This document shows positions 9,317-35,001 of a DNA stretch of 35,757 nt, in pieces. The stretch lies in NCBI GenBank assembly GCA_012521085.1, contig JAAYNB010000148.1:1-35757 (forward strand). Direction: 5' to 3'. Position 1 is the first letter of the stretch; every line of letters starts with the position of its first letter. The DNA is from Clostridiales bacterium (GTDB lineage Bacteria > Bacillota > Clostridia > Peptostreptococcales > Natronincolaceae). The notes below the pieces were generated by a model. It made no database searches, was not told where the DNA came from, and worked only from the letters and a program-made list of their open reading frames with translations. A program made the position numbers and the translations under genes.

Positions 9317-10396
9317 GTGTTAGAATTTGACGTAGATATGGATCAATTTGCTCGAATAAAAGTAATAGGTGTTGGTGGTGGTGGCAATAATGCCGTAAAT
9401 CGCATGATAGATTCAGGTTTAAAAGGTATTGAATTTATAGCTATTAATACTGATAAGCAGGCCCTATTCACATCAAAGGCAGAGCATAAAGTTCAAATTG
9501 GTGAGAAATTAACTCGAGGCTTGGGAGCAGGAGCAAATCCAGATATAGGTAAAAGAGCCGCTGAGGAGAGTAAAGAAGATATTGAAAAGATATTAGAAGG
9601 CGCTGATATGGTATTTATTACTGCTGGTATGGGAGGAGGCACAGGTACAGGTGCTGCTCCAATTGTGGCAGAAATAGCTAAGGAATTAGGGATTTTAACA
9701 GTGGGTGTTGTAACCAAACCTTTTACATTTGAAGGTAAGAGAAGAATGGTTCATGCAGAGCAAGGAATTGAAGAGTTAAAAGGAAGAGTAGATACTTTGG
9801 TAACTATCCCCAATGATCGTCTATTACAAGTAATAGAGAAAAAGACAACTATGTTAGATGCATTTATTATGGCAGATGATATTTTAAAACAAGGTGTACA
9901 AGGTATATCTGATTTAATTGCAGTACCTGGTTTAGTAAACCTAGACTTTGCAGATGTAAAAACCATCATGGAAGAGCAAGGTTTAGCTCACATGGGCATT
10001 GGTAGAGCCAGTGGAGAAAATCGTGCAGCAGAAGCTGCAAAACAAGCTATACATAGTCCACTTTTAGAAACATCCATTGATGGAGCAAAAGGTGTTCTTC
10101 TGAATATTACAGGAGGAACAAATTTAGGACTATTTGAAGTAAATGAAGCAGCTGAATTAGTAACACAAGCAGCAGACCAAGATGCTAATATTATTTTTGG
10201 TGCTGTTATTGATGAAAGTTTAGAAGATGAAATCAGAATAACTGTAATAGCCACAGGTTTTGAAAAAGATGTTATTAAAGATGTAGAAGATTCAATTATA
10301 AAACCTGTTGGAACTGATCCAATAGAAATAAAATCAGATAAAGTAAAACAAATTGATGAATTAGATATACCTATTTTTTTAAGAAGAAATAGATAA
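9317..10396 (+). CDS. ftsZ: cell division protein FtsZ
   Basis: [35 protein letters not shown]-terminal DIPIFLRR tail; GTG start with GGGGG upstream. Confidence 0.99.
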
Positions 10397-32747: not shown

Positions 32748-34442
32748 ATGCAATATACTGGAGGAGAAATAATTGTTAAGTTATTGGAAAATGAAGGGAT
32801 AACAAAGGTCTGTGGTATCCCTGGGGGAGCAAATCTTCCCCTATATGATGCCCTATCTAAAAGTGATAAGATAGAGCATATATTAGCAAGACATGAACAG
32901 GGTGGAGGTTTTATTGCCCAAGGTATAGCCAGAGCTACAGGGAAAGTTGGAGTTTGTTTAGCCACATCGGGCCCAGGTGTAACTAATTTATTAACAGCCA
33001 TAGCTGATGCTAAATTGGATTCAGTTCCATTGGTAGCTATTACTGGTCAAGTATCTTCATCTTTTTTAGGAACAGATGCTTTTCAGGAAGTAGACACATG
33101 TGGTTTGGCCATTCCCATAACAAAACACAATTTTTTTGTACGTTCTGTAGAAGAATTACTACATATTATACCTGAAGCATTTAGAGTAGCTGAGTCTGGT
33201 AGACCTGGGCCAGTACTTGTGGATATACCCAGAGATGTACAAATGGCAAAAATGGAAGTATTAGAGTGGCCTAAGAAGAAAGAAAATAGTCCACTAATAG
33301 AAAATAAAAAAATAGAACCTGTAAATATGGAAGATATTGCAAAAATAGCAGAGGTTATTAACAGGGCAAAAAGACCTATTTTATATATAGGTGGGGGCAT
33401 ATTACAAGCTAATGCCCATGAAGAATTGTATAAATTTGCAAAGAAAAATAATATTCCTGTAGCTTCAACCTTAATGGGTTTAGGCTCATATCCATCTGAT
33501 GATGATTTATACCTAGGTATGTTAGGGATGCATGGCGCACCTCATACCAATATTATATTAAATGAGACGGATTTATTAATTGCTCTTGGAGTAAGATTTG
33601 ATGATAGAGCAACGGGTAATATTACAAAATTCTGTCCAAATGCCACTGTTATACATGTGGATATTGATCCTGCAGAATTAAATAAAAATAAAATTGCTCA
33701 GTATACCCTTGCAGGAGATTTAAAAGAAGTATTGGAGAAATTATTCCCATTACTTAGTGCAGATGATAGACAAAATTGGATTGATGAAATTACAAAGATA
33801 AAAAATGAAAATCCTTTATATATGCCAAGGAAAAAAGGTTTCTATCATCCTTTAAACTTTATAAAAGAAGTTGGTGATATGTTAGACCCAGAGACTATTA
33901 TTACAACGGATGTAGGTCAACATCAGATGTGGGTTGCACAGGCTTATCCTTTCAAAAAACCACGTAAATTATTGACATCAGGGGGTTTAGGTACCATGGG
34001 CTTTGGTTTACCTGTAGCCATTGGTGCTGCATTAGCTAATCCAGATAAAAAAGTAATTTGTATAAGTGGTGATGGTTCATTTTTAATGAATATTCAAGAA
34101 TTAGCTACATTAGCAGAACTAAATCTAAATATTACAGTAATTATATTAAACAATGGATGTCTAGGTATGGTAAGACAACAGCAGGAGCTTTTCTTTAATA
34201 AAAATTATGTGGCCTCTAAGTTTAAAAGTAATCCGGATTTTGCATCTATTGCCAATGCCTTTGGTGTAAAGGGATATGATTTTACCAATGTGAAAGAGGC
34301 GAATGAATTACTTAGAGGAATATTATCTACTTCTGCACCTTCAGTTATAAATGTGCCCATAGATGATAGAGAAAATGTCCTACCAATAGTACCACCAGGT
34401 GCAGCTAATTATCAAATGATAGGGGGTAAGATAATTGAATAA
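32748..34442 (+). CDS. ilvB: acetolactate synthase large subunit
   Basis: GIPGGANLPLYDAL, LARHEQGGGFIAQGIARATGKVGVCLATSGPGVTNLLTAIADA, GDGSFLMNIQELAT..NNGCLGMVRQQQELFF. Confidence 0.96.
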   Translation: MQYTGGEIIVKLLENEGITKVCGIPGGANLPLYDALSKSDKIEHILARHEQGGGFIAQGIARATGKVGVCLATSGPGVTNLLTAIADAKLDSVPLVAITGQVSSSFLGTDAFQEVDTCGLAIPITKHNFFVRSVEELLHIIPEAFRVAESGRPGPVLVDIPRDVQMAKMEVLEWPKKKENSPLIENKKIEPVNMEDIAKIAEVINRAKRPILYIGGGILQANAHEELYKFAKKNNIPVASTLMGLGSYPSDDDLYLGMLGMHGAPHTNIILNETDLLIALGVRFDDRATGNITKFCPNATVIHVDIDPAELNKNKIAQYTLAGDLKEVLEKLFPLLSADDRQNWIDEITKIKNENPLYMPRKKGFYHPLNFIKEVGDMLDPETIITTDVGQHQMWVAQAYPFKKPRKLLTSGGLGTMGFGLPVAIGAALANPDKKVICISGDGSFLMNIQELATLAELNLNITVIILNNGCLGMVRQQQELFFNKNYVASKFKSNPDFASIANAFGVKGYDFTNVKEANELLRGILSTSAPSVINVPIDDRENVLPIVPPGAANYQMIGGKIIE

Positions 34443-34737
34443 TCAAGATGTTGTTATACAGTTAACAGTAAACAATCACCCAGGTGTTATGTCGCATATT
34501 ACAGGACTTTTTACAAGAAGAGCTTTTAACTTAGAGGGTATTTTATGTGGAAGATTGGGAAATGGAAAAATCAGTAGAATATATTTATTAGTGAAAAAAG
34601 ATCAAAGATTAGATCAAATAATAAAACAATTGGAAAAATTATATGATGTATCAGAAGTATTAGTATGTGAGGATTATAATCATAAGATTTTTGATGATAT
34701 TCATAAATTAATTAGAAGTGATGATGTAAAAAAATAA
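34435..34737 (+). CDS. ilvN: acetolactate synthase small subunit (short, single ACT domain)
   Basis: QLTVNNHPGVMSHITGLFTRRAFNLEGILCGR; TTG start overlapping ilvB. Confidence 0.9.
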   Translation: MNNQDVVIQLTVNNHPGVMSHITGLFTRRAFNLEGILCGRLGNGKISRIYLLVKKDQRLDQIIKQLEKLYDVSEVLVCEDYNHKIFDDIHKLIRSDDVKK

Positions 34738-34758: not shown

Positions 34759-34806
34759 TTTACAAAGAACATTTGTTCTAGTATAATAAAAACAGAACAT
34801 ATGTTT
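34759..34806 (+). promoter_or_regulatory. LexA-type (SOS) regulated promoter with two LexA boxes
   Basis: -35 TTTACA (34759-34764), 17 nt, -10 TATAAT (34782-34787); GAACATTTGTTC (34767-34778) in the spacer and GAACATATGTTT (34795-34806) near the start of transcription. Confidence 0.85.
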
Positions 34807-34825
34807 GCATGAGGAGGGCCAAGAA

Positions 34826-34909
34826 ATGAAAAGAATTATATTCATTGGGACGGTAAAGGAATTAAGAGAATATTTAAGAACATGGAGAAAAACACTTAGT
34901 ATTAATTGA
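34826..34909 (+). CDS. putative 27-aa SOS-controlled small protein MKRIIFIGTVKELREYLRTWRKTLSIN
   Basis: ATG preceded by perfect SD GAGGAGG (34811-34817), directly downstream of the LexA-box promoter and upstream of a terminator; below the length cutoff of the ORF track. Confidence 0.55.
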   Translation: MKRIIFIGTVKELREYLRTWRKTLSIN

Positions 34910-34936
34910 ATTAAAAACTATTTAAAGTTATTATAG

Positions 34937-34974
34937 AGATACTGGAGTTTTATTAAACTTTAGTATCTTTTTTT
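34937..34974 (+). terminator. intrinsic terminator of the SOS-type unit
   Basis: AGATACTGGAGTTT TATT AAACTTTAGTATCTTTTTTT. Confidence 0.88.
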
Positions 34975-35001
34975 AAATTAAATGCAGGAATTTCAATCGA
35001 A

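Follow-up and report, generated by a model that had tools for sequence, protein, structure and literature searches.

The window, that is, the whole stretch of 35,757 nt analysed here, is the forward strand of contig JAAYNB010000148.1 of assembly GCA_012521085.1 (Clostridiales bacterium, Natronincolaceae). Between ilvN (34435-34737) and an HlyD-like ORF it carries a monocistronic unit of about 180 nt, which encodes a short peptide, ends with a strong terminator and lies outside any prophage. The elements of the unit and the proposed target of its product are located as follows.

34759..34764, + strand: −35 hexamer TTTACA, with at most one mismatch in 28/28 boxed homologues
34767..34778, + strand: LexA box 1, GAACATTTGTTC, inside the promoter spacer
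34782..34787, + strand: −10 hexamer TATAAT, separated from the −35 hexamer by a 17-nt spacer
34795..34806, + strand: LexA box 2, GAACATATGTTT, where transcription is expected to start
34812..34817, + strand: Shine-Dalgarno sequence AGGAGG, read directly
34826..34909, + strand: 27-codon gene of the minimal MciZ-like peptide, MKRIIFIGTVKELREYLRTWRKTLSIN, with the ATG at 34826 and the stop codon at 34907-34909
34935..34977, + strand: intrinsic terminator with a 16-bp stem and a loop of 4 (34935-34970), followed by a U tract
9317..10396, + strand: ftsZ, whose product is the proposed target, also within the window and 25 kb from the peptide gene

Hence, the promoter, both boxes, the Shine-Dalgarno sequence, the short ORF and the terminator described in an earlier sequence-only reading of this DNA are all found, exact to the base. 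The centres of the two boxes are 28 bp apart. One intrinsic terminator is found against 0.1 expected.

The pair of LexA boxes is not expected by chance: none of the Markov-shuffled 200-bp upstream regions has two boxes, and one box appears in 1.7% of them. The geometry of the promoter is also retained in relatives. In 28/28 boxed copies, which come from 27 genomes, the LexA box starts exactly 8 nt past the start of the −35 hexamer within a 17-nt spacer, and in about half of these homologues a second box follows the first at a distance of 27-32 bp. A boxed copy is present in every one of the 27 genomes with a clear copy of the peptide, and one genome has two. The genome of the window (G000), 91% complete in 279 contigs, has a single LexA on contig C50, which combines the DNA-binding and the peptidase domains. 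Boxes of the same Gram-positive type are found in G000 upstream of recA, lexA, uvrB and a YdjM-like gene (names by reading translations), and the recA box is identical to box 1 of the peptide gene. G000 therefore has the repressor and, with it, the matching specificity. The SOS reading proposed from the sequence alone, and so the membership of the peptide gene in the LexA (SOS) regulon, is strongly supported by the conserved promoter and by the presence of the repressor, and we infer that the gene would be induced by DNA damage.

Additional ORFs follow the SOS peptide in some relatives. At L003, L006 and L007 (G001, G010 and G013) an ORF of about 81-106 aa just downstream has the LexA DNA-binding domain alone (PF01726, E 1e-7 and 6e-7), without the peptidase domain; its product could be a non-cleavable LexA competitor. 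At L082 and L117 a small ORF (MKIVAKPIEMVAWF.../MRIVNQPIQMIAWFKEDG...) is placed directly downstream, 77-88 nt after the start codon of the SOS peptide. No convincing Pfam family is found for it, and it is possibly part of the SOS transcript.

The SOS peptides form a family of 22-37 aa with the consensus MKxFVFxGTVKELRxYLxxWKK. A protein search (E<=1) finds the peptide in 31/60 genomes of relatives. The profile search over 395 genomes of the order gives strong matches in the host's family (19/20 genomes) as well as in two others (f6 and f7). The hosts include Anaerovirgula multivorans, whose lineage is Peptostreptococcales, Natronincolaceae, as well as Natronincola peptidivorans and Alkaliphilus species. 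Class-wide, the profile search adds no members beyond the host's family, only chance-level fragments. The search of relatives suggested in the sequence-only reading thus shows the peptide to be conserved in Natronincolaceae and two more families of the order. The adjoining genes vary among genera, so what is kept is the promoter together with the peptide.

The codon changes are mainly synonymous, with a nonsynonymous/synonymous ratio of about 0.12 of the neutral expectation, and the substitutions concentrate on third codon positions. The amino-acid sequence is conserved, but the sequences of the flanks, leader and terminator are not. This strongly supports the claim that the unit encodes a small protein. 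It also bears on the alternative raised from the sequence alone, in which the product is a small RNA under SOS control and the ORF is fortuitous. Such an RNA would agree with a short, monocistronic transcript ending in a strong terminator; however, the conservation sits at the codon level, which leaves this reading unsupported, and the full transcript is no more stably folded than its shuffles (z −1.2). We consider it very improbable. Programmed +1 frameshifting within codon 18, which would give a longer protein ending in HGEKHLVLIELKTI, had also been considered. The +1 frame indeed exists, with 14 open codons in the window copy, but a similar tail occurs in 0/27 other boxed copies and the conserved end is the zero-frame W-K/R-K. 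The frameshift product is refuted, since no relative keeps that frame, and we give it a practically negligible chance.

The sequence-only reading did not recognise the peptide, and we now identify it as MciZ-like by comparison of profiles. The sole Pfam match of the window peptide at E<=10 is MciZ, PF13072, with E 0.05 and 13.9 bits, which is under the 22.2-bit cut-off; the best member of the SOS family reaches 15.0 bits, also below the cut-off. When genomes are scanned with PF13072 alone, the family does not stand out from chance, and thus profiles of one family against the other are needed. PF13072 was used to gather an independent set of MciZ proteins from 399 phylum genomes, including proteins of 40-44 aa such as MYIIVNKKSIYFYGKVKELRKYLNELSSEYTTVAQFINSKLN. 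Alignment of 24 SOS peptides with 13 MciZ proteins by hhalign gives a probability of 94.8, E 5.4e-8 and a score of 34.4. Of 300 column-permuted decoys the highest-scoring one reaches 19.6, and the profile in reverse 8.9. In the reverse direction, the SOS-peptide profile run over six frames of the 399 phylum genomes hits five loci only outside its own genome. Three are MciZ genes from a single genus, and two, from another genus, encode 41-aa proteins with the layout of MciZ; one of these two proteins matches the window peptide at 15/25 residues. These 41-aa MciZ-like proteins (L205 and L208 of G765 and G947; MQTVSSFKSLIFIGTVRELRLYLRTLPKKMTLRHFLWQQIH) have no PF13072 match in Pfam and modest MciZ profile scores; the PF13072 family model could be widened to them.

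The alignment between the SOS family and MciZ is ungapped over 22 residues. The invariant residues are equivalent, Gly8 of the SOS peptide corresponding to Gly14 of MciZ and Leu17 to Leu23, and Arg14 takes the position of MciZ Arg20. Hence, the SOS peptide has the strand-Gly-helix core of MciZ, with strand beta2 and helix H1. It lacks the last 12-15 residues, including any equivalent of the C-terminal helix, and most of the N-terminal leader, so that its 22-37 aa fall short of the approximately 40 aa of MciZ. Because both the cut-off and the length are missed, we do not file the SOS peptide in PF13072; based on the profile comparisons, we conclude that it is a shortened, SOS-wired variant homologous to MciZ. 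No SulA family match is found for the window peptide in Pfam or NCBIfam at E<=10, and the 27-aa soluble peptide has neither the transmembrane segment nor the LysM domain or its equivalent that mark YneA/SosA. Searching PDB sequences with the profile of the peptides returns unrelated short matches only.

MciZ is a sporulation peptide, the mother-cell inhibitor of the cell-division protein FtsZ, which it caps, and structures are available for the B. subtilis protein (PDB 4U39/2MRW). Its binding to FtsZ needs the Arg20-Asp280 salt bridge, the placement of MciZ beta2 on FtsZ beta9 and that of H1 on H10 (review PMC10089256). In B. subtilis MciZ is under sigma-E control, and synthetic MciZ added from outside filaments the cells at 1-5 uM (PMC5045927). 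FtsZ of the window strongly resembles its B. subtilis counterpart (E 2.6e-143). Its residue equivalent to Asp280 is Glu, and the position is acidic in all aligned relatives. At the sequence level, the reported contacts are conserved in kind in both the peptide and FtsZ. We note that the SOS peptide is 22-39 kb from ftsZ in G000, G003, G006, G010, G013 and G019. G024, G035 and G055, all of family f6, have two full-length ftsZ genes each.

We suggest the following mechanism. In the undamaged cell, LexA dimers bound to the spacer box and the start-site box would hold the peptide gene off. With DNA damage RecA filaments would form and trigger the self-cleavage of LexA, the promoter would fire, and the 27-aa peptide would be made from the strong ribosome site. 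The beta-strand of the peptide is predicted to join the edge of the C-terminal sheet of FtsZ with the peptide helix resting on helix H10, and Arg14 would face the acidic residue at position 280. As a result, the face through which FtsZ polymerises would be blocked, and Z-rings would fail until LexA is restored. The peptide would thus do the job of SulA or YneA using the binding mode of MciZ.

Very probably, then, the unit is an SOS checkpoint gene and its product a LexA-controlled inhibitor of FtsZ, a cut-down MciZ which is functionally a SulA. In its favour are the conservation of the gene and of its LexA-box promoter, the homology of the core to MciZ, the retention of the elements reported to contact FtsZ, the acid kept at FtsZ position 280, and the distribution of YneA and the paralogues described below; we infer that the peptide would bind FtsZ and arrest division. 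The Pfam score below the cut-off, the missing MciZ ends, the Glu in place of Asp280 and a YneA statistic that ignores relatedness are counted against it. These anaerobic bacteria probably halt division upon DNA damage through a previously undescribed route.

YneA is the usual SOS division inhibitor of Gram-positive bacteria, and the distribution of its LexA-boxed form is complementary to that of the peptide. The search with the model NF010723 in the same 60 relatives gives strong YneA matches in 17/35 genomes without the peptide; 16 of these are LexA-boxed, and the remaining one runs into the end of its contig. LexA-boxed YneA is found in 0/25 genomes with the peptide vs 16/35 without it, and a single one of the 25 has a YneA-like match, which has no LexA box. 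Fisher's test gives p 5e-5 for the exclusion, ignoring relatedness; at the level of families the comparison is 3 vs 7, with no overlap. Judging from this distribution, the peptide replaces the division inhibitor YneA across families.

It might also be that the peptide is derived from MciZ and controlled by the SOS response, but acts on another partner, for instance a divisome or replication protein, or merely tunes the dynamics of FtsZ and leaves division running. The absence of the MciZ C-terminal helix would be in line with this, as would W20 and Y16 of the SOS group, which differ from Y26 and K22 of B. subtilis MciZ. However, the retained part is exactly the one reported to contact FtsZ (PMC10089256), and the gene takes the place of a division inhibitor across families, which makes another partner unlikely. 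As a short SOS peptide it also invites comparison with TisB, an SOS-induced toxin acting on the membrane, but direct reading shows a charged sequence without a hydrophobic stretch of membrane-spanning length, and the homology to MciZ argues against a toxin as well; we regard this reading as highly unlikely. The inhibition of FtsZ, as set out above, is thus the preferred reading.

Paralogues of the peptide occur in two other settings. In six genomes a copy is flanked by a DUF368-type gene on one side and a response regulator on the other (names by reading translations; L131, L132, L133, L143, L018 and L079). All six have upstream TCATAT(T/C)-N13-14-AATAnAAT, which resembles the sigma-E consensus; at up to 2 mismatches the background of such a match is about 1% per 150 bp, and 5/6 copies reach this level while one has 3. 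Hence, we describe these promoters as sigma-E-like. In G005 and G015 the LexA and the sigma-E-like promoters are together on the same gene of this locus, and in the remaining four genomes the LexA copy is a distinct gene at another locus, which looks like the partition of promoters after gene duplication. The window copy has the LexA promoter only, and no sigma-E promoter is found at it. The un-boxed paralogues L118 and L119 (G014 and G002) directly follow an ORF with the GGPGVGKS ATP-binding motif.

The second setting is that of prophage early regions, where copies are present at eight loci near RecT, SSB, DnaD-like, DnaB or integrase genes. These MciZ-like peptides of prophage operons (L134, L136, L138-L141, L144 and L145) have in some cases an N-terminal extension (MITFDRTPVIKGESIKIYCFTGKVKDLKTYLRGEKEKAGKIN). 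No relatives are found in phage records, plasmid records or viral contigs, and the prophage copies are thus so far known from host genomes only. The SOS response, the mother cell and the phage early operons are all known settings for division inhibitors. We consider it somewhat more probable than the contrary that one family of FtsZ-blocking peptides is wired to three programmes of division arrest within these bacteria, with the dual promoter in G005 and G015, subfunctionalisation in at least four genomes and copies captured by prophages. If so, the division blocks of the SOS response and of sporulation would be the same device.

In the open-licence literature we find no described SOS division inhibitor for these Clostridia and no report linking MciZ to the SOS response. 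SOS arrest through direct blocking of FtsZ is known from SulA of gammaproteobacteria. If our interpretation is true, it arose here independently, from a sporulation peptide, with about 22 residues. The peptide would then be among the shortest natural inhibitors of FtsZ, and its gene would be a clear example of how promoters are shared out once a very small gene has duplicated.

The closest of the known systems is MciZ (PF13072), with which the SOS peptide shares the hydrophobic strand, the invariant Gly, the helix with the equivalent of Arg20 and the invariant Leu, and the small, soluble and basic character. However, MciZ is longer, with the C-terminal helix and leader that are missing here, and its promoter is of the sigma-E type, whereas that of the SOS peptide is controlled by LexA. 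SulA is similar in its LexA control and in its site of action, since the peptide is predicted to obstruct FtsZ at the same C-terminal face of polymerisation, but it is unrelated in sequence and size, being a larger folded protein which sequesters FtsZ. YneA/SosA of Bacilli and of other families of this order is likewise a LexA-controlled division inhibitor and has the same place in the SOS regulon. YneA is a membrane LysM protein which blocks septal wall synthesis through FtsW (PMC13396833). Unlike it, the peptide is soluble, and in the 60 relatives LexA-boxed YneA is never in the same genome as the peptide. The phage inhibitors lambda Kil and T7 Gp0.4 are also small inhibitors of division, and paralogues of the peptide are found in prophage early operons; however, we claim no relation in sequence to them, and the copy in the window is not in a prophage.
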